The position numbers were made by a program, and so were the translations under genes. Below are positions 10,595 through 21,074 of a stretch of DNA of 21,074 bases, one piece after another. Position 1 is the first letter of the stretch. Each line of letters opens with the position of its first letter. The stretch spans positions 1 to 21,074 of the IMG/VR virus record IMGVR_UViG_3300040815_000435. One strand, 5' to 3'. Source of the DNA: a virus. The notes beneath the pieces were generated by a model. The model did no database searches. It saw only the letters and a program-made list of their open reading frames with translations, and was not told where the DNA came from.

Positions 10595-13500
10595 ATGAAG
10601 AAGAATAAGCAGTTAGAGGCCCAGCTAGCGGAAGCGCGGCGAAACGCCCGCTCCTTGAAGGCGAAGGAGATACTCGCACGTCGCGAGAATAATCCGCTGT
10701 CCGTTTCCGAGCAGTGGTCAGAAACCTTAAACTTCGAACTTCCCGATAGTATGCGACAGGTTGAAGTGCCGGAGGTAAACGTCTCTGACGTATCCCCTGG
10801 CTGGGGCTTACCGGGTACTATGGACGAACATATGGCAGTCCTATGGCGTCGCTCTACGTTTGCCCGTGAGGCGGCAGCCACCGCTAACGGTATTGGCGTG
10901 TACGCTAAAGACGGGAGCCGTAATTGGGTCCCTACGCGGGAGGAGTACCAACGCCTCTCGGAAGAGTACGGCCTAGACCCGCGACATCCGTCTTTCCAGG
11001 TTATGTGGATGGCCCGGTCGTCTGAGCAGTTAGAAAAAGCTGCACAGCTGGTGCGCCGTAACATGGACCAAGATGGCTACGCCGCAGAGAACTACAACGG
11101 AGCCTTCGGAGACACTCTCGAAGTAGGGGCCATGTTCTTTGACCCTATCTTCTTAGGTGGGGGCGGGGTGGCGGCGTCGCTCAAGATAGGTGCTAAGTCA
11201 ACCAGACTTGCAACTACGGCTGACAAAGGCCGCAGAGCCCACATATGGGGCACTACGGTGGCCGCTGAGTCACTAGCTATTGATGCCCCCATCGAGGCGC
11301 TACGGGCGCTGACTGACGACACTGTAGGCTTCGCTGACTTCGTACTCAACCTGACAGTCTCAGGTCTCGCTGGGTACTCGCTGGGCCAAGGCTTCACGCG
11401 TATGACCTTCAACGAGAAGGTAGCCCTTGAGGATGCCGCTAAGGCTCTTGAAGGTGCCCGTAAGGCCCGCGACGTTGACCCAGTGTCTTTCGACGAGGCT
11501 GCCGCTACAGACGGCCTAGAGGTCTCCCCTGACGCCCCTGAAGGCACCCCTAAGAAGAAGAACCCCTACATGGGTCGTAAGTCTTTCCGGGGTGCTGAAG
11601 AAGGCCGAGGACCAAAGCCTGATGTAGACGAGAGATCCCTAGCCGCAGCTAAAGCACGAGACGAACAGCTTGCGGTGATTGCAGAGCTTGAGGCAAAGAT
11701 GCCGAGCCCTGAAGAACTCTCCAAGATGCCCAAGGCAGAGCTGATCGAACTCTACAACGAGTTGGGCGGAGATGCTGTGCCTACGATGCGCATGAAGAAG
11801 GATACCCTTCTCACCATGGTCGGAGGCGTCCTCCCGAACCGGAAGCGTACAGTCCGTAAGGCTTACGACTCAGCCGTCTCAGATGCTGGTGCTGGTAACA
11901 AACTTCAGCGCATCGAAGAAGGACAGGCGACCGCCCTCTCAGCGCGTCCATCCGTGGCTCAGGTCATCTCGACCAAATCAGAGGAGTCATACGGCGGAGA
12001 CCTTGGTACAGCCGCTAATTTACACTTTGCGGTTTCGAACCCGCGCCTAGCGGACGCGAAAGAGGCCGTCGAGGCTATCTCAGATAACGTCCTCAACCTC
12101 GCCACGAGCAATGAGAAGGCTCTAAAGGTAATCAAGCAGGAGCTGACGACAGCTCACTCAAAGAGAGAGCCTTACTTGGCGAACCCTGAGAACCCTTTGG
12201 ATGATGTCCTCGCTCGTTTCAATCGCGATGCGTCTCCAGAAGAACTCGTGGAGCTGGCTAAGGAAGCTAAACAAGCAGCCAACCAGTCGCGCCTGCTCAC
12301 TATGGAAGATGTGTTTCCTGAAACCCTCTCAGCGCGTAACCAAGACGACGTTGTGTCGATCCCTAAGAACCCTGACGTAGAGAAACCTAGCGACCCCAAG
12401 AAGCCTCGCTTCTCTGTCCTAGATCAGGGAGCTGTAGCAGACACCCCAATCTGGGTGGCCGCTCAGAAGGTATTAGGGGGCATGACACCTCCCAAGCGTA
12501 ACGACCCAGCGGTCGGTCGTGGTTTCGGCAAGTGGACTTACAACAAAGGCGAGAACGTCTCTGTGGGCCGTGGCTACTTCGTTCCTATCGCAAACCTAGA
12601 GGCAAGCCCAAGGGAAGGCGTGAGACAGCTTACGCATATCATCGTACCTAACCGAGGCACCGACAGTATCCCTCAAGGCGTTACCGCCTCAGAGGCCGCT
12701 GTGCGTCACTCAGACGTAGGCGCTGTGTTCCAGAGGGAACGCGTCGAGGCTGCTAGCCGGTTCTTTGCGAGACGCGGGCAGGTCAACGCGATCACGGGTA
12801 ACGTCTCTGATGGCCAGATCAACGACTTCAACTCGATGGTTGGTGCCCTTATTGACGGTATCGATGACCTTGAGTTCCACCCGTTGTTCCGTGAGTACGA
12901 CATTGATCCAGAGGAGTTCGCTAAGGACCCTGATGTCATCTCTGCGCGCCAAGCGACTGCCGAAGACTTTGATCAGAACCGCGTAGCGCTGCAAGACCCT
13001 AACCATATGCACGGGGACAACAGCCAAGGGTTCATTCATATCCCTGACCCTGAAGCTGGGTTCTCCATAGGTGACGAGTATCTCGACCGCCTCCGCGACT
13101 GGAAGAACAGCGAAGTATCTGCCGAGCCTACAAGCTCAGAGTTAAACACCGTGGGACGCCAAGGTTTACGCCGAGGTGCCTCTACAGGTGCTATCATCGG
13201 TGCCTCTCTTGCGGCCCCTGCGATTGGCTCTGTCCTTCTATTCAACGGAGAGGCTCTCGATGAGACCTCCCCTGTGGCTGGCCTAGCGCTCATGACGATT
13301 GCAGGCGCAGCCTTTGGCGGCCCTCGTGGTGCCTTACGCAGCCGTAAGCTACTTCGCCAGCGTAGAGCTAACCAGCGGGTCAAGTGGGAGAAAGCCAAAC
13401 CTGGCTTCTCTGTATTCTCTGACGCTAGTAGCCCTAACGCTGACCAAAAGAAACTAAAGCAAGCCCAGAAGCTAGACGCCGAAGGTGCAAGCCGAGACAC

Positions 13501-16500
13501 CATCTGGAGACAGACGGGTTGGTTCAAGGCTGCCGCCTCTAAGGAGTGGTTGTTTGAAGACGTAGCCGCGTATGCCGATGAGCTGACCGAGGAGACAATC
13601 CCAGCGTCACTCTTAGAAATACTACCGGATGACCTAGTGGTTGCCCTTCAGCGGGAAGACCCGTGGAGAGAGAACGTCCTTGGTGCCATGCGTACCAACG
13701 AGGATGGCTCCCTGACCATCAGGATCAACCAGAAGGCTGACGCCGGGATCCAAGTGTCCACGCTGCTGCACGAGTTCCAACACGCAGTGCAGAAGGGACA
13801 GGACCGTCTGGGTAAGATCGAGAGTACATTCCGAGAGTACCTACGGTCTCAACACGAGGCCGAAGCGCGTCTTGCAGCTAACCGCATGGGCATGACAGCG
13901 CAGGAGCGCAGTGCAGTCCCTCCGTATCGCATGTACGATGTCATCGTTGACGATATTACGGCTAAGGCTGCCGATGGAAACCCAGAGGATGTCCTCCGGT
14001 TATCCCAAGCTCTGGACGCTGTGAACCGTGAAGGATACCTTGCAGAGAACTCTAAGTTCGTAGGTGAGCACCCTGATTACGGTGGCCCTATGTGGCGCGT
14101 TGAGTTGCCTGAAGGCTCTGCCATTCACTACTACCTTGCACCTGACGGTACGCCCGATCAGATGGAAGTGTCGTGGGACTGGGTGGAGAACTTTGACCCT
14201 GAGATGGAGATGACCCAGTTGGACAAAACGTCCACTGAGATGCTCCAAGCGATGCAGCTAGCGAACAACATGACCGTCCAGGTTTTGAACGATGGTACAT
14301 ACCCGTTACTGTACTTCAGCGGTCTCACCGAAGGGCATACGCGCAAACAGCGTAAGCTCTTGTCTAAGCACATTGGTGGTACGCCCTACGCGGGATACAT
14401 TGCCGAGACTGAGCCTAAGCCTGATGGTTCCAAGAAGACGTACTATGCGTTGGTAAGGAACGATATAGGTGATGCAGAGGATCGCGTTCAAGCGCTCCAC
14501 AGTAGTAAGCTAAAGGTCTCTGAGACTGAGAGCTGGCGTCCATTCAACCCTGAAGCTGGTTACATGGCCAACGGTGTCCCTTACGAGGGCGCAGAGTTTG
14601 CTCACGGCTGGGTAAAGGACCCCAACTACTTCCACCGCTCGTTCCTCGGGGATCGCGTGAGGGAAGTCCTTTCGACCCCTAAAGGCGAAGCTACGCTGGC
14701 AGCGGAGATTGCTGATGCGGCTATCAGAAGCCCTGAGACAATCGGAAGCGTTCAGCGTGCAGTCCAGAAGCGTAAACCTGCCGACCTAAAGCAAGCCATG
14801 TTTGATGAGGTGATGCGTATCTCTACGAACTACGTGAAGACGCTTCGCGAAATCCACAACTTGGCCAAGAGTGATTCCACTCCTAACTTTGCTCCGCGTT
14901 CGCAGTCTACTAAGCAAACCGCAAAGGGTATCGCAGAGGCTCAACTGGGTCGCCAACTGACCCCAGAGGAGAACGAAGCGATTACTCTGTTCGGCGATAT
15001 CTTGGCTCCTCCAAAGGAACCAAATCGTCCGGGCTTCTCTAAGCGTAAGCTCAAGATGAAGATCAGCGCAAAGGATCACCCTACGCTCCTGAGCATACTC
15101 GACCATGACGTTTCTGCTGCTGCAAACAAAATACGTGCGCAGTCCGCAGGTCACGTAGGGTATCTCAAGGTAGGCATTAGGGACGCCTCCGCAGTAGACG
15201 CTGCTATCGCTAAGATGGAAACTGAGGCAGGCTTCTTGCCTGACACGGACAGCCAAAAGAGAACCGCAGAGGAACTCCAGATGGTTAGTCGCCTTCACGA
15301 CGAGGTAATGCACCGCGCCGAGGGGCCGACGGAAACTGTCAGTGCCATTAAGAAGCTCTTGATGTCTTTGACCCTATCCAACGTAGCGTTCTCTATGGGC
15401 GGTGAAGTCTTCAAGACAATGTTCTCTGCCGGAATGCCTCGCGTCCTTCGCGCCGTTACGGACTATGGTAGGTTTCGCGAAGCTGCCGCTGCTGGCAGGA
15501 CAGACGAGCTAGACCCTTTGTTCAAGCTGGCAGACGACCTCCACGGTGGTGCTATGATTCAGGCGGCCACTGGCGGTAACATTGCGCGTATCGAAGCGCG
15601 TGAAGGTGTTGCCCGAGACGGTCGCGAGAAAGGCTTTAATAAGTTTGCCCGAAAGGCAGCTAACGCCACCGCTAAGTTCTCTGGCATGGCTCCTTCTACT
15701 ATGTACATGCGCGCTACGCTGGTAGGCGTCAACGCCCGTAGGGCTCTAGAGCGCGTGCGTAAAGGCAAGCCTATGGAAGCCTCGAGTACTCTGAGATCAC
15801 GCTACGGTCTCACAGACGACATCGTGGGGCGCATTGAGCAGCAACTGCGTGACATGCCCTCTACGACTAGCCCGATCACAGGCCAGAAGGTCTCTGACTG
15901 GAGCTTCAATAGTTGGGCAGACGTCGAGGCTCGAGATGCGTTCATCTCCTACTTGGACAGAGTGTCAAAGCAGAAAGTCCAAGAGATACAGGCAGGCGAA
16001 GTCCCTCACTACTTCAAGAACGGACCCGCTTCGGCCCTGTTCCAGCTCATGTCGTTCACCATCGGTGCCACTAACAACTGGTCCCGCAAGGTGTACCGGG
16101 CGATCAACCCGTTGAGCGACGCAGACATGCGCTCTAGAGTACACGACACCTACGGCCTTCTCATAGGCTTGGCAGGGTCGGGCCTGTTTGCGTATGCACG
16201 CTTAGCTGCTGACGTGGCCACTATCGCTGACGAAGAGGAACGCAGGGCAGCCGCTGATGAGATGCTGCAAGGTAACTCCCCGGCGCTCATGAAAGCTATC
16301 ATGTACACGCCAGAGGTAGGTCCAATTCCTTCTGGAGCTGACCTACTGATGACAACATTCGGTCAAGACCCTTTGTTCTCTAGGTCCCGCAACAGCGGCC
16401 TTGAGACCATAGGCGCTGCGCCGTGGAAGTCATCACCCATCACGACGTTACCTGATCGTGCGTTGGCATTGGGGCAGTCCCCGTTCACAGAAGAACAGGA

Positions 16501-16615
16501 CTTCCTCAAAAGCGCTCGTCAAGCGACGCCTATGGGTAACTCTATGGCCGTCACTATGCTGGCCAACGAGGTCGCTGAAAAGCAAGAGCAGATACAAGAG
16601 GAAATCTTCGAGTAA
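10595..16615 (+). CDS. Giant internal virion (ejection) protein, T7 gp16-like, with an embedded zinc-metallopeptidase motif
   Basis: 2006 residues, far longer than the 1318 of T7 gp16. In order: a charged N-terminal helix; a region (about 160-275) with hydrophobic Gly/Ala-rich segments; a possible SAP/Rho-N-like helix pair (about 370-405, 'LSKMPKAELIELYNELGG'); a Pro/Lys linker with PRFSV (604-608); an unrecognised segment; a Gly-rich hydrophobic pair (863-909); PGFSV (936-940); an LPD-like 'AEGASRDTIWRQTGWF' motif (962-977); and HEFQH at 1059-1063 with downstream glutamates E1088 and E1090, the layout of a zincin peptidase. PGFSK (1479-1483) precedes the conserved gp16-like C-terminal region (about 1580-2006), which has a hydrophobic stretch near 1853. 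gp16 is ejected into the host and helps translocate the DNA. I found no lytic transglycosylase motif at the N-terminus. AGGAAA precedes the ATG. Confidence 0.87.
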   Translation: MKKNKQLEAQLAEARRNARSLKAKEILARRENNPLSVSEQWSETLNFELPDSMRQVEVPEVNVSDVSPGWGLPGTMDEHMAVLWRRSTFAREAAATANGIGVYAKDGSRNWVPTREEYQRLSEEYGLDPRHPSFQVMWMARSSEQLEKAAQLVRRNMDQDGYAAENYNGAFGDTLEVGAMFFDPIFLGGGGVAASLKIGAKSTRLATTADKGRRAHIWGTTVAAESLAIDAPIEALRALTDDTVGFADFVLNLTVSGLAGYSLGQGFTRMTFNEKVALEDAAKALEGARKARDVDPVSFDEAAATDGLEVSPDAPEGTPKKKNPYMGRKSFRGAEEGRGPKPDVDERSLAAAKARDEQLAVIAELEAKMPSPEELSKMPKAELIELYNELGGDAVPTMRMKKDTLLTMVGGVLPNRKRTVRKAYDSAVSDAGAGNKLQRIEEGQATALSARPSVAQVISTKSEESYGGDLGTAANLHFAVSNPRLADAKEAVEAISDNVLNLATSNEKALKVIKQELTTAHSKREPYLANPENPLDDVLARFNRDASPEELVELAKEAKQAANQSRLLTMEDVFPETLSARNQDDVVSIPKNPDVEKPSDPKKPRFSVLDQGAVADTPIWVAAQKVLGGMTPPKRNDPAVGRGFGKWTYNKGENVSVGRGYFVPIANLEASPREGVRQLTHIIVPNRGTDSIPQGVTASEAAVRHSDVGAVFQRERVEAASRFFARRGQVNAITGNVSDGQINDFNSMVGALIDGIDDLEFHPLFREYDIDPEEFAKDPDVISARQATAEDFDQNRVALQDPNHMHGDNSQGFIHIPDPEAGFSIGDEYLDRLRDWKNSEVSAEPTSSELNTVGRQGLRRGASTGAIIGASLAAPAIGSVLLFNGEALDETSPVAGLALMTIAGAAFGGPRGALRSRKLLRQRRANQRVKWEKAKPGFSVFSDASSPNADQKKLKQAQKLDAEGASRDTIWRQTGWFKAAASKEWLFEDVAAYADELTEETIPASLLEILPDDLVVALQREDPWRENVLGAMRTNEDGSLTIRINQKADAGIQVSTLLHEFQHAVQKGQDRLGKIESTFREYLRSQHEAEARLAANRMGMTAQERSAVPPYRMYDVIVDDITAKAADGNPEDVLRLSQALDAVNREGYLAENSKFVGEHPDYGGPMWRVELPEGSAIHYYLAPDGTPDQMEVSWDWVENFDPEMEMTQLDKTSTEMLQAMQLANNMTVQVLNDGTYPLLYFSGLTEGHTRKQRKLLSKHIGGTPYAGYIAETEPKPDGSKKTYYALVRNDIGDAEDRVQALHSSKLKVSETESWRPFNPEAGYMANGVPYEGAEFAHGWVKDPNYFHRSFLGDRVREVLSTPKGEATLAAEIADAAIRSPETIGSVQRAVQKRKPADLKQAMFDEVMRISTNYVKTLREIHNLAKSDSTPNFAPRSQSTKQTAKGIAEAQLGRQLTPEENEAITLFGDILAPPKEPNRPGFSKRKLKMKISAKDHPTLLSILDHDVSAAANKIRAQSAGHVGYLKVGIRDASAVDAAIAKMETEAGFLPDTDSQKRTAEELQMVSRLHDEVMHRAEGPTETVSAIKKLLMSLTLSNVAFSMGGEVFKTMFSAGMPRVLRAVTDYGRFREAAAAGRTDELDPLFKLADDLHGGAMIQAATGGNIARIEAREGVARDGREKGFNKFARKAANATAKFSGMAPSTMYMRATLVGVNARRALERVRKGKPMEASSTLRSRYGLTDDIVGRIEQQLRDMPSTTSPITGQKVSDWSFNSWADVEARDAFISYLDRVSKQKVQEIQAGEVPHYFKNGPASALFQLMSFTIGATNNWSRKVYRAINPLSDADMRSRVHDTYGLLIGLAGSGLFAYARLAADVATIADEEERRAAADEMLQGNSPALMKAIMYTPEVGPIPSGADLLMTTFGQDPLFSRSRNSGLETIGAAPWKSSPITTLPDRALALGQSPFTEEQDFLKSARQATPMGNSMAVTMLANEVAEKQEQIQEEIFE

Positions 16616-16701: not shown

Positions 16702-19700
16702 ATGGCTCTGTCATATGATGCGTACCCCGCCGATGGGGTAACTACGCAGTTCGACATCACGTTCGGCTACCTTAGCCGCTCTCATGTGTTTGTCTTTGTG
16801 GACGACGCGCTCCGCAGCTACCGATGGATTAACGGTACTCGCGTTGAGCTAAACCTTGCCCCTGATCCCGGGCAAACCGTGCGTGTCCAGCGGTTGACTG
16901 ATCGTGTCACTAGGGTCACCGACTTTGTTGACGGACAGACACTCCTCGCTGGCGACCTAGATGCTGGCGACTTACAGAATTTCTACATCCTCCAAGAGAT
17001 TGCCGATCAGGTTGCTGACGGTGTTCTCACTGGGGCGATCCCCATAGCTACTGCTTCCGGCTCCGGTACGGGTGGCTTTGTCACCGAGCAGTGGATCAAC
17101 GAACAACTCGAAAGCAACGCGTATAGCACGCAGGCTTACCTCCAGCTTCTCCAACAGATCACTGATGAAGAGGTTGCACGTGCCCAGGCGATTGCCTCTG
17201 AGGCTGCTGCGCGGGCTGCGGCTGTGGCACAAGAGGCCGCTGATAGAGCCACTGCGATTACCGCAGAGGCCACCCAGCGCGCTCAGGACGTCTTGAACCT
17301 AGAGCAAGCTGACCTAGCTGCTGGTCAACGCTTGGATGCCCTAGAGAGCACCGTGGACACTCCTACGACTGGCCTCAGTGCCAAGATCGCTACCCTTGAG
17401 ACTGTCACGACGGACCTTGAGAACAACAAGGCCGAAGCCTCCGTGGTCACGGCTATCCAGTCTGACCTCGACGATCCTACAACAGGTCTAAAGGTCCGCG
17501 CTACGTCTCTCGAAGATCGCACTACAGCGGTCGAGAACGGTAAGGCTGACACCTCAGTCACTGACCTTCTGGACACTGAGATCAACGATCCTACGACTGG
17601 CCTCAAGACCCGAGCGACTTCGCTGGAGAACCGAGCGACAACCCTAGAGAACGGCAAGGCCGAAGCCTCCGCACTCACAGCGCTTACGACCCGCGTAGAC
17701 GACGCTGAGGCGGACATCGTGGCCGAGCAGACAGCTCGCTCTACCGCTGACTCCGCGTTCACCCAGCAACTCAATACTCAGATCGCACGTATCGACGGCG
17801 CTGAGGGTGACATTACTAGCCTCCAAACGACGGTCGCCACTGAGACTGGAGTGCGTGTCTCCCAGATCAACGCAGCGAACGCTCGTATCGACGGCGTAGA
17901 GACGGACGTAACTACCGTTACCCAGCAACTGGCGACGGAAACCCAAGCACGTATCGACGACATCGCAGCGGCCAGCGCCGCAACCGCATCGGCCCAAGCT
18001 GACGCCACGAGCGCTCTCTCTCTGGTTGCCACTGAGGAAGCCTCGCGTATCTCTGAGGTATCTCGGCTGCAAACCCGGTTCGACAACAAAACCGATGGTG
18101 GTCGCCTGCTGCGCAATGACCGCTTCCAAGCCGACGAGGTGGGTGCCACCAAGTGGCCTGAGCACTGGAATGCGTGGGTCAGCGGCGTCACGACGTTTAA
18201 CGCGGAGGCAACAGGAGCCCCCGGCGTGGTGGCGTATATGCCCGTGGCTGCCGGAAACCAAGGGGGTATGTACCAACGCGCTGACGGTCTTCAGGGAGGT
18301 GGCACGTACATGGTTACAGCACGAGTGAGACGACGCGGTGGTACTTTCGCAGCCGCAGGTATCTTCATTCAGTGGCGCGATGCGTCCAACGCCACCCTCA
18401 GTCCCAACGCCTCCCTCGTGTTTAAGAGTTCTACAAGCCACGAAGGTCAGACAGGAGAGACCCCGGACGGCCTTATGACATACACGGCGGAAGTTACCGC
18501 GCCTGCTGGTACTGTAGCTGCGATTGTGTACGCAATGGGGCAATACAATGGCTTCGGCAGCAACGCTGTTGGCTGTCAAATAGATTGGTATGAAGCGTCT
18601 ATTCTCCCGCTGTCCGGTGCGGACCAACGGGCTATCAACGCGCAGGCAACCGCTGACAGTAACACCCAGCTAATCTCGAACGAGACGGCTGCTCGTGCCT
18701 CAGCGCTCGATAGCCTAGAGGCTCAGTACCGCTCAGAGATGGCGCGGCACAACCTGATCCCCGGACCTTACCGCATCATGACGGAAGCGGCTTGGATGGC
18801 TGACCCCAAGATGGTCCGCCTGTACAACGCTAGCCTCTATGGGACCGGGATACAGAACCCTTGGACCAGTACCGATGCTCTCAAATTTGATAGCACCGCA
18901 GGCGACGCTCGCCTTGCCTTCACCCCTGACTTAGGGACTGACTTCTTCAACCGCCCCGACAGGCTAGGTGTAGTCATGGAGGCCGGTCGAAGCTACGCAG
19001 GGAAGATCGACGTCCAGATCAACGCAACGCACACCAACGTTGCACTGTTTGCCCGAGGTAATGACGATGGGGGTCTCTACACCATCGTCTCTGGCACACC
19101 GAACGGCGGTGTGCAGACCCTAAACGGCATCTTCACCCCCACGGTAACCCAGAAGTACTCCTTCGAGTTGAGGGTACTTAGCCCGTCCGGGCAGATCAAC
19201 AACTGGATTTACCGTATGCAGGTCACGCGCCTGTTCCCCGGTGAGATCGCCTATGATGTTCCTTGGATTGACGACGAGGCTGACACCACGAGCGAAGCGG
19301 CAGTTAAGGTCCTCAAGGATGCCCTAGCAACCGGAAGCGCCTCACAGGCTCGCCTGTTCATGGGAGTAAACACCTCGAACAACGAAGCGTTCCTTGAAGC
19401 GTACGCTGGTGAAGGCGATGGTGTCTGGAACGGATCGAAGATCAAGCTCAAAGCTGACTTCTTCGAGTTCGACGGCACCGCTGTGTTCAACCAAGGCGCT
19501 CTCAGTGCTGCGGGTACTGCGGTCAACTTCACGGTCTCAGGGACAGCCCCTAGCTCCCCTGTAGATGGCGAATGGTGGGCCGATAGTGTCGGAGGTTCCC
19601 TCTACATCCGCTTGGCTGGTGCATGGCAGCTCATCTCAAACATCTCTCTGGATAATGCTTTCAGACTGACAGGGGCACCTGTGGTGATCGCCGAGGCACC

Positions 19701-19971
19701 TACGTCATCAGCGAGTGCTACCGCTACCACGGGTACGCCGGGAATAGCCGCCGTGAATGCCACAGGAACCGTAACTTACGCTTGGTATCGAGTAGGTGGA
19801 GACGCCTCCATAGCCTGCTCTAACACCGCCACAGCTAACCCTACGTGGTCAGGTGTTCCGGGCGCTGTGCCTAGCACCAAAGACGCTGCGTGGCGTTGTG
19901 TAGCTACTGATGCTGCTACCGGAGATACGGCGATCTTCGACACCATCGTGCGTCTAACGAACCTCTTCTAA
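16702..19971 (+). CDS. Tail fibre protein, T7 gp17-like N-terminus with carbohydrate-binding-like and Ig-like C-terminal domains
   Basis: 1089 residues, about twice T7 gp17 (553). Residues 1-105 are the conserved nozzle-attachment domain of T7 tail fibres (ALSYDAYPADGVTTQFDITF, then SRSHVFVFVDD and a late LLAGDLDAGDLQNFYILQEI). Residues about 125-460 are a trimeric coiled-coil-like shaft with Ala/Glu heptads and two families of internal repeats. Two beta-rich blocks follow: about 465-640 (LLRNDRFQADEVGATKWPEH start, like sugar-binding jelly rolls) and about 680-855 (HNLIPGPYRI start). A short segment with ARLFMGVN and DGEWWAD comes next. The last 95 residues (about 992-1089) look Ig-like, with TYAWYRVGG and AAWRCVATDAATGDTAIFDT. 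The distal part should recognise the host surface. No self-cleaving chaperone end was seen. Confidence 0.9.
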   Translation: MALSYDAYPADGVTTQFDITFGYLSRSHVFVFVDDALRSYRWINGTRVELNLAPDPGQTVRVQRLTDRVTRVTDFVDGQTLLAGDLDAGDLQNFYILQEIADQVADGVLTGAIPIATASGSGTGGFVTEQWINEQLESNAYSTQAYLQLLQQITDEEVARAQAIASEAAARAAAVAQEAADRATAITAEATQRAQDVLNLEQADLAAGQRLDALESTVDTPTTGLSAKIATLETVTTDLENNKAEASVVTAIQSDLDDPTTGLKVRATSLEDRTTAVENGKADTSVTDLLDTEINDPTTGLKTRATSLENRATTLENGKAEASALTALTTRVDDAEADIVAEQTARSTADSAFTQQLNTQIARIDGAEGDITSLQTTVATETGVRVSQINAANARIDGVETDVTTVTQQLATETQARIDDIAAASAATASAQADATSALSLVATEEASRISEVSRLQTRFDNKTDGGRLLRNDRFQADEVGATKWPEHWNAWVSGVTTFNAEATGAPGVVAYMPVAAGNQGGMYQRADGLQGGGTYMVTARVRRRGGTFAAAGIFIQWRDASNATLSPNASLVFKSSTSHEGQTGETPDGLMTYTAEVTAPAGTVAAIVYAMGQYNGFGSNAVGCQIDWYEASILPLSGADQRAINAQATADSNTQLISNETAARASALDSLEAQYRSEMARHNLIPGPYRIMTEAAWMADPKMVRLYNASLYGTGIQNPWTSTDALKFDSTAGDARLAFTPDLGTDFFNRPDRLGVVMEAGRSYAGKIDVQINATHTNVALFARGNDDGGLYTIVSGTPNGGVQTLNGIFTPTVTQKYSFELRVLSPSGQINNWIYRMQVTRLFPGEIAYDVPWIDDEADTTSEAAVKVLKDALATGSASQARLFMGVNTSNNEAFLEAYAGEGDGVWNGSKIKLKADFFEFDGTAVFNQGALSAAGTAVNFTVSGTAPSSPVDGEWWADSVGGSLYIRLAGAWQLISNISLDNAFRLTGAPVVIAEAPTSSASATATTGTPGIAAVNATGTVTYAWYRVGGDASIACSNTATANPTWSGVPGAVPSTKDAAWRCVATDAATGDTAIFDTIVRLTNLF
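17362..17703 (+). repeat. Triplicated 114-bp (38-residue) repeat in the fibre shaft
   Basis: The codons for PTTGL start at 17362, 17476 and 17590, an exact 114-base period. Each is followed by a similar 'xxRATSLExRxTxxENxKAExS' coiled-coil segment. The copies differ at many bases, so the repeat is not recent in all parts. Thirty-eight residues equal five heptads plus three, which would break the coil register at each PTTGL. Confidence 0.8.
17788..17979 (+). repeat. Second fibre-shaft repeat, 96 bp (32 residues)
   Basis: ARIDGAEGDITSLQ and ARIDGVETDVTTVTQ start 96 bases apart (codons for RIDG at 17788 and 17884). A shorter third start, ARIDDI, is at 17950. Each copy contains an 'ATET' segment. 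It extends the shaft distal to the 38-residue repeats. Confidence 0.65.
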
Positions 19972-19989: not shown

Positions 19990-20640
19990 ATGATAAGGAA
20001 AGCCTTGGCGGTTCTGTCCGCCTTGGCTGTTTCCGCGTGCTTACTCGCCCCGGGCACTGCGGTCTCGGCCACTCATGAACAAGTGTTCGTGAGGAAGTTT
20101 AATTGTGAGGTCCCCGTAGTGGACCCCCGTGGCGACATTAAGGCGGCTAAACGTACAGCGACAACCGTGCGCGTAGGTGACGCAGTCTTGACAGCTGGGC
20201 ACGTATCTACGGGCTGCGCTGATAAAGACGCAGGTGTGGTGTTCCCGAGCATCGACCTGGCCATCTTAAAGGCGGGCAAAATGGTATCCTGTAGGGAACC
20301 TAAGCCCGGTGAACCTCTACGGTTCTATGGGTATCCGGGCAGTGACCTGGAGACAGGCTTGCGACGTTCTGAAGTCGTGCTGGAATGGCAGGACGGAGAG
20401 GTAACTGTGAACAACGTCCCCGTGCTCTTAGCGCTGGACACGTTCAATAACATCGCGGTCTACAAGAACCATACGAGCGCTAAGGCCCCCAACGTACGCC
20501 GAGGGTACTCCGGCGGTGCGGTTGTGAACCGTGACACGGGGGAGTTCCTTGGGATTATCTCAACGGCATCCCCTGTGAAAGACAGCGCTTCGTTTATCCC
20601 TGCCAACATTATCTGCGAGAAGATGGAGGCTCTCCTATGA
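19990..20640 (+). CDS. Exported trypsin-like serine protease, possibly a lipoprotein
   Basis: 216 residues. Basic start (MIRK), hydrophobic helix, then VSAC (14-17), which fits a lipobox; alternatively AVSA (24-27) could be a plain signal-peptidase site. The mature part has the chymotrypsin-fold triad: LTAGHV with H71, SIDLAIL with D89, and GYSGGAV with S174. H71 to D89 is only 18 residues, shorter than usual for this fold. Four cysteines besides Cys17 (39, 76, 101, 209) would allow two disulfides in the periplasm. It follows the fibre by 18 bases with AGGA upstream, and its stop overlaps the next start (ATGA). It occupies the position where T7 has its holin (gene 17.5). Target is unknown: envelope proteins, lysis components or surface receptors are all possible. 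Confidence 0.78.
   Translation: MIRKALAVLSALAVSACLLAPGTAVSATHEQVFVRKFNCEVPVVDPRGDIKAAKRTATTVRVGDAVLTAGHVSTGCADKDAGVVFPSIDLAILKAGKMVSCREPKPGEPLRFYGYPGSDLETGLRRSEVVLEWQDGEVTVNNVPVLLALDTFNNIAVYKNHTSAKAPNVRRGYSGGAVVNRDTGEFLGIISTASPVKDSASFIPANIICEKMEALL
20625..20629 (+). promoter_or_regulatory. Strong ribosome site inside the protease gene
   Basis: GGAGG lies seven bases before the ATG at 20637, inside the last codons of the protease gene, and supports the ATGA-coupled start of the small membrane protein. Confidence 0.75.
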
Positions 20641-20867
20641 TTGCCTCTATCCTAAGTTCACCAGAAGTACTCTGGTCGGCGCTTGTGGCTGGTGTCACCG
20701 GCGTTGGGGCCACTGGAGCCAAGGTTTTGCACCTGCATCACAGAGTCGATGCCCTCGAAGAAGAACTAGATGACACCAAAAGTGACGTTAAGGAGGACTT
20801 AAAGTACCTCCGAGATCGCATGGACAAGGTGTTTGAGTATCTAATGGAGACTGAGCCTAATGTCTAA
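20637..20867 (+). CDS. Small membrane protein with C-terminal coiled coil, possible lysis component
   Basis: 76 residues. One hydrophobic segment (about 11-31, Gly/Ala/Val-rich) is followed by a strongly charged helix (about 33-70, RVDALEEELDDTKSDVKEDL) with heptad spacing of Leu, Val and Met. The layout (one N-terminal TM then a coiled coil) is that of a miniature inner-membrane spanin or of small accessory membrane proteins in phage lysis cassettes, but it is too short to be a typical Rz-like spanin, and T7 gp18.5 is 143 residues. It begins in the stop of the protease gene (ATGA) and its end overlaps the small terminase start by eight bases, so all three are translationally linked. Family not recognised. 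Confidence 0.65.
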   Translation: MIASILSSPEVLWSALVAGVTGVGATGAKVLHLHHRVDALEEELDDTKSDVKEDLKYLRDRMDKVFEYLMETEPNV

Positions 20868-21074
20868 AGCCGCCTCTATGGACGTACTGGAGCAATTACA
20901 CGCTGCGGTCGCCAAGACACTTACAGATGCCCTTACGGGCGCAGAGGAAGTGAGCCCTCAGATGCTCGCACAGGCCATCAAGTTTCTCAAAGAGAACGGT
21001 GTTGAGCCTGCAAAGGATGTCGATCACTCGGCCCTCGATGCACTCTCGGAGCAAGTCTCCAAGTTTGTCTCAGG
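20860..21074 (+). CDS. Terminase small subunit, T7 gp18-like, 3' partial
   Basis: The frame opens at ATG 20860 (MSKAASMDVLEQLHAAVAKT) and runs off the window after 71 codons; T7 gp18 has 89. The pattern 'LEQLHAAVAKTLTDALTGAE' then 'VSPQMLAQAIKFLKENGVEP' resembles small terminases of T7-like and many other phages: an Ala/Leu helix, an acidic turn, then the 'sp..l..ai.fLk.n.i' helix. The small subunit recognises concatemeric DNA and regulates the large subunit, whose gene should lie just beyond the window. GGAG at 20846-20849 gives a ten-base spacer. The first eight bases overlap the upstream gene. Confidence 0.82.
   Translation, partial: MSKAASMDVLEQLHAAVAKTLTDALTGAEEVSPQMLAQAIKFLKENGVEPAKDVDHSALDALSEQVSKFVS

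Follow-up and report, generated by a model that had tools for sequence, protein, structure and literature searches.

A predicted exported, trypsin-fold serine protease encoded beside the tail fiber of a T7-like podophage

The window analyzed here, a virus record of 21,074 bases, covers the late region of a T7-like podophage. Between its tail fiber and small terminase genes lies a gene for what is very probably an exported, active serine protease, with catalytic activity, late expression, and compartment deduced from sequence features and a structural model. The protein is a previously uncharacterized variant within a known enzyme class (we found no characterized member of its family), and it probably acts on a protein of the host envelope. 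The target and the purpose are proposed with low confidence; our leading reading, to which we give a probability of roughly 0.4, is that the protease works in the envelope in connection with the fiber's receptor, serving superinfection exclusion or progeny protection.

The gene and its neighborhood

The genes of the window run in the order portal, scaffold, capsid, tail tubular proteins, internal virion proteins, fiber, protease, small membrane protein, and small terminase. The features needed below are the following.

16702..19971, + strand: tail fiber gene, 1089 aa, directly upstream of the protease gene; distal modules common to other protease-positive phages
19990..20640, + strand: gene for the predicted exported trypsin-like (HtrA/MarP-fold) serine protease, 216 aa, ATG start; recognized from the ORF, homologs, and predicted fold
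19990..20070, + strand: predicted signal peptide, aa 1-27, MIRK plus hydrophobic core; lipobox-like VSA/C17, alternative signal-peptidase-I site VSA/T28
20200..20202, + strand: codon of the predicted catalytic His71 (TAGHV), invariant in the four-sequence alignment; helix 70-74 in the model
20254..20256, + strand: codon of the predicted catalytic Asp89 (IDLAIL), which aligns with the MarP Asp (SVDVAIL)
20509..20511, + strand: codon of the predicted catalytic Ser174 (GYSGG), invariant in the alignment
20637..20867, + strand: gene for a small transmembrane (TM) and coiled-coil protein, 76 aa; its start codon and the protease stop overlap by 4 nt, and the L197 homolog has the same overlap
20860..21074, + strand: small terminase (TerS) gene, continuing past the window end; Pfam DNA_Packaging_2

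The protease gene is not a chance ORF, given its three homologs (34%-44% identity), the location between fiber and TerS that these share in related phages, and the retention of the triad and cysteines. An earlier note on this DNA had placed it between fiber and terminase and described its product as made late; the neighboring genes confirm the first point and support a late-operon position. Its ATG lies 18 nt past the fiber stop codon, with an AGGA motif upstream, and its composition is similar to that of its neighbors (GC 0.565, GC3 0.641). The same note likened the locus to T7 gene 17.5 (holin). The fiber and terminase neighbors agree with this comparison, but the small TM/coiled-coil gene sits between the protease and TerS, so that the gene 17.5 position belongs to it and not to the protease.

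Elsewhere in the window, positions 10595-16615 encode a 2006-aa gp16-like internal core protein with an LPD23 domain (E 4e-11). Upstream of its phrog_342 C-terminal region, at aa ~1037-1114, the sequence weakly matches a metallopeptidase and contains an HEFQH motif, and the protein possibly carries a fused, ejected Zn-protease. Two small membrane proteins are encoded at 2069-2728, between the scaffold and capsid genes, which is an odd site for lysis genes. One is a phrog_2524 protein, common to relatives G004 and G001-G003; the other is holin-like (81 aa) and matches phrog_34682/297.

Homologs and rarity

We gathered related loci via the small terminase, and the two nearest of them, L093 and L095, proved to carry homologs of the protease. 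A fixed-spacing motif was derived from these (TAxHVxxxC, 12 residues, D-x-x-I). Among viral contigs it matched only that of L093; across 85,000 genomes it had 15 matches, one of them a true homolog (L197). The three homologs, L093, L095, and L197, have 44%, 34%, and 34% identity to the window protease. The other bacterial-genome matches to the pattern are due to chance or, in Pleionea (L193), to a lipoprotein whose HtrA-like domain is of the ordinary type and whose patterned Asp is not likely the triad Asp. Early viral-contig matches, obtained with the single protein, a two-sequence alignment, or loose H-D-S DNA patterns, proved to be chance similarities within long structural proteins. No phage record was matched when the protease and two homologs were run by tblastn against 50,697 records, even at E 10 or 1, and a plasmid search with the protease gave only weak cellular trypsin-like matches.

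The protease is present in two of 56 TerS loci with >2 kb of upstream sequence. It adjoins the 3' side of the fiber gene in three of the four phages that have it; in L095 one small gene lies in between. Judging from these sequence searches, the family is a rare, phage-restricted trypsin-fold subfamily whose hairpin between the catalytic His and Asp (H-D) is trimmed to ~18 residues.

The L197 contig (JAKVAX010000027.1, 45.7 kb) derives from the same T7-like phage type and is binned into a Flavobacteriales MAG. This is likely binning contamination, as its relatives resemble Proteobacteria phages. Both L197 (741-3532) and L093 (6273-9492) have an extra large receptor-binding-like gene (781-853 aa), absent from the window, which is accompanied by a conserved 76-aa partner gene next to the small terminase.

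Predicted fold and catalytic residues

The triad proposed earlier (H71-D89-S174) and the cysteines (17, 39, 76, 101, and 209) are at the positions given for them, and a survey of the locus in related podoviruses, which had been suggested as a check, found all three catalytic residues kept in every homolog. Invariant in all four sequences are H71, D89, S174 within GYSGG, a GYP motif, and C39, C76, C101, and C209; a Cys at H+5 is likewise common to all four. The order His, Asp, Ser with a GxSGG motif, retained among the homologs, is that of chymotrypsin-fold serine peptidases. The H-D spacing had been called unusually short, and it is: 18, 18, 18, and 20 residues in the phage proteases, against a count on the sequences of 29 for both MarP and the Pleionea protein and 32 for an Acaryochloris relative.

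The AlphaFold2 model has a chymotrypsin/HtrA-type fold, as expected of a trypsin-like protease (pLDDT 74 and pTM 0.73 with four sequences; 66 and 0.67 in a three-sequence run). Its top Foldseek match in the PDB is MarP/Rv3671c (E 5e-8), and VIA-align gives Z of 15-17 for MamO, Deg, DegS, DegP, and HtrA. Alignment of 992 trypsin-fold-ranked chains to the model yielded Z up to 16.8 and the double beta-barrel of the fold. In the model, H71 opens helix 70-74, D89 immediately precedes strand 90-94, and S174 is in the loop before strand 177-180, so the predicted placement of the three is as would be expected for the fold. A sequence profile separately selects MarP, aligning D89 with the Asp of SVDVAIL and C39 with a MarP Cys. 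Scores against Pfam Trypsin_2 (clan PA; cut-off 27.6 bits) are 21.5 for the window protein, 17.6 for L197, and 29.1 for L095, the only one above it. There is no C-terminal PDZ domain; the protein ends 42 residues past Ser174, and its last element is helix 205-215. A disulfide has been reported in MarP between residues 214 and 397 (PMC4992679), and because C39 aligns with a MarP Cys, a C39-C209 bond is plausible by analogy in the phage protein.

Export and the putative lipid anchor

All four proteases have a basic N-terminus, a hydrophobic core, and a Cys in the signal region. Across the kin records scanned, no other coding-strand ORF has a convincing secretion signal with a Cys; in the protease-less relatives G001-G003, we found none of this kind, bar one implausible frame. 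Export, as claimed previously, is well supported by these sequence features, and the four mature cysteines, conserved in all homologs, would fit an oxidizing compartment.

Lipid anchoring is uncertain. The earlier note saw a signal sequence with lipobox VSAC, which does fit the strict published consensus ([LVI][ASTVI][GAS]C), as does LVAC of L095. However, ATC of L093 and AVC of L197 do not, and thus the lipobox is not retained in two of the four. In three (the window, L093, and L197), good AxA signal-peptidase-I sites follow the signal Cys. Spanin lipoboxes are known to deviate from the consensus. A similar Cys-bearing signal occurs in T4 Spackle, which is cut after residue 22; a Spackle match to the protease was rejected as a sign of kinship, as it covers only the signal peptide.

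A tentative link to the tail fiber

The distal fiber modules of the window have 51%-57% identity to those of L093 and 61% (over 75 aa) to those of L197, and those of L093 have 34%-38% identity to those of L095. These modules are confined to the four protease-positive phages and occur in no other locus compared; the fiber tips differ among the four. Capsid identity to the window is 68% for L197, 67%-74% for the protease-less G001-G003, and 89% for G004. The capsid of L197 is therefore no closer than those of phages without the protease, indicating that the protease is distributed with the distal fiber and not with the phage backbone. With only four phages, and with G004 as the nearest backbone relative, the association is weak and partly confounded, and we treat the idea that the protease travels with the distal modules as a lead, not proof. 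The major capsid gene of G004 appears to be interrupted by a group I intron (L178:9861-10478, minus strand; Rfam RF00028, E 1.9e-18) that holds an HNH-endonuclease-like ORF.

In L004, the slot after the fiber gene is occupied by a tail-fiber-assembly chaperone. Together with the tracking of protease and distal fiber, this makes the slot look like a site for fiber-partner genes. The gene for the T5 exclusion lipoprotein Llp is likewise adjacent to and downstream of that for the receptor-binding protein pb5 (PMC9586334). Among the purposes suggested earlier, receptor stripping and superinfection blocking fit best with the fiber linkage.

Proposed role and alternatives

The mechanism that we propose starts from a compact chymotrypsin-fold serine protease (triad H71-D89-S174) that would be expressed with the late genes and directed by its signal peptide across the inner membrane. 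Disulfides would hold it in shape in the periplasm, where it may be lipid-anchored at the outer membrane, and it would cut a host envelope protein there. The likeliest target would be the receptor that the phage itself uses, or else a protein on which adsorption or DNA entry depends; once it is cut, infected cells and their debris would stop capturing sister phages (superinfection exclusion, or progeny protection). The fiber adjacency, the shared distal modules, and the T5 Llp precedent are what lead us to link the protease to the receptor; it would be a proteolytic counterpart of Llp.

Next in rank, though we think it rather unlikely, is a lysis accessory: a late-exported protease that would open the envelope of a host whose phage has no recognizable spanins, either by cleaving (lipo)proteins of the outer membrane or linked to peptidoglycan, or by activating a murein hydrolase of the host. 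Translational coupling to the gene at the T7 holin position favors such a role: in the window and L197, whose small proteins are homologous, the TM/coiled-coil start codon and the protease stop overlap, and the protease and a small gene are coupled in L095 also, with the order swapped. The two Pfam families searched for spanins, Rz and Rz1, had no match in G000-G005 (G000 and G005 are fragments, and the L197 contig lay outside this search), and a scan with a lipobox rule of our own, in place of LipoP or SignalP, found no further candidate lipoprotein. Spanin-less phages do exist (no spanin was found in 91 of 677 surveyed), and the way in which they disrupt the outer membrane is still unsettled (PMC6139136). 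However, G001-G003 have no candidate lipoproteins, no detectable spanin, and no protease, and must open the envelope nonetheless; the protease is thus no stand-in for a spanin lost in this clade, which weakens the earlier suggestion of a spanin substitute. Its rarity (two of the 56 TerS loci counted above) also counts against a part in lysis. Nor does it resemble an o-spanin or u-spanin, being a folded protein of 216 aa with no C-terminal TM segment and no Rz1 family match. A match of the small TM protein to phrog_739 (Rz-like spanin) was dropped, as that profile gave matches in 14 of 14 control genomes.

It is unlikely, in our judgment, that the protease serves counter-defense or envelope remodeling by destroying a host factor of the periplasm or outer membrane that has no part in adsorption or lysis (e.g., an envelope-stress or defense protein, or a host protease). 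The HtrA/MarP-type fold belongs to a class active in envelope quality control, and the gene is accessory and patchily distributed, as counter-defense genes are, but it occupies a late-operon site between structural genes. The defense-library matches are weak and due to the shared trypsin fold, and those to RT-protease and LmuA were set aside for that reason. Least probable of all is a decayed, non-catalytic trypsin fold that works as a binding protein. It would accord with an H-D segment ~11 residues shorter than that of MarP and with the sub-threshold Pfam score of the window protein; against it, H, D, S, and GYSGG are invariant across four divergent homologs, and pseudo-enzymes seldom keep a triad together with a GxSGG-type motif. 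We therefore rank the fiber- and receptor-linked protease above the lysis accessory, then other host-envelope targets, and last the non-catalytic fold. Put more broadly, we suggest tentatively that an exported protease paired with the tail fiber acts late in infection to destroy the phage's receptor or some other protein of the envelope, so that exclusion or outer-membrane opening would come about through proteolysis and not through lipoprotein binding or spanin action.

Comparison with known systems

MarP (Rv3671c), a membrane-bound serine protease in the periplasm of M. tuberculosis, is the best profile and Foldseek match in the PDB. It has the same order of elements (H..D[VL]AIL..GYPG..GxSGG), and the N-terminal Cys of the phage domain aligns with a MarP Cys upstream of the triad. 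However, MarP has N-terminal TM helices and an H-D spacing of 29, whereas the phage protein has a cleavable or lipoprotein-like signal and a spacing of 18. The HtrA/Deg proteases (DegP, DegQ, DegS; HtrA family S1C) are a periplasmic class with the same protease-domain fold (VIA Z ~16), but the phage protein, at 216 aa and with a short C-terminal helix, has no room for a PDZ domain, and its H-D hairpin is shorter. The window family thus adds to the trypsin fold a subfamily with this hairpin cut to ~18 residues. Trypsin-like serine proteases have been reported in T4-like alphaproteobacterial phages (PMC10783043); these too are phage-encoded, but their context differs, and the window family matches no phage record searched.

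The likeness to T4 Spackle (gp61.3), also a phage periplasmic protein, is confined to the Cys-bearing signal; Spackle is a lysozyme inhibitor and the product of an early gene (PMC7677548). T5 Llp is, like the window protein, an exported phage protein whose gene adjoins a receptor-binding gene on its downstream side (PMC9586334), but Llp blocks FhuA by binding, whereas the window protein is predicted to fold as a protease, and its lipid anchoring is uncertain. Both exclusion proteins compared here, T5 Llp and T4 Spackle, work by binding, and the protease is a concrete candidate for receptor removal or envelope opening by proteolysis at the junction of the fiber and holin positions.
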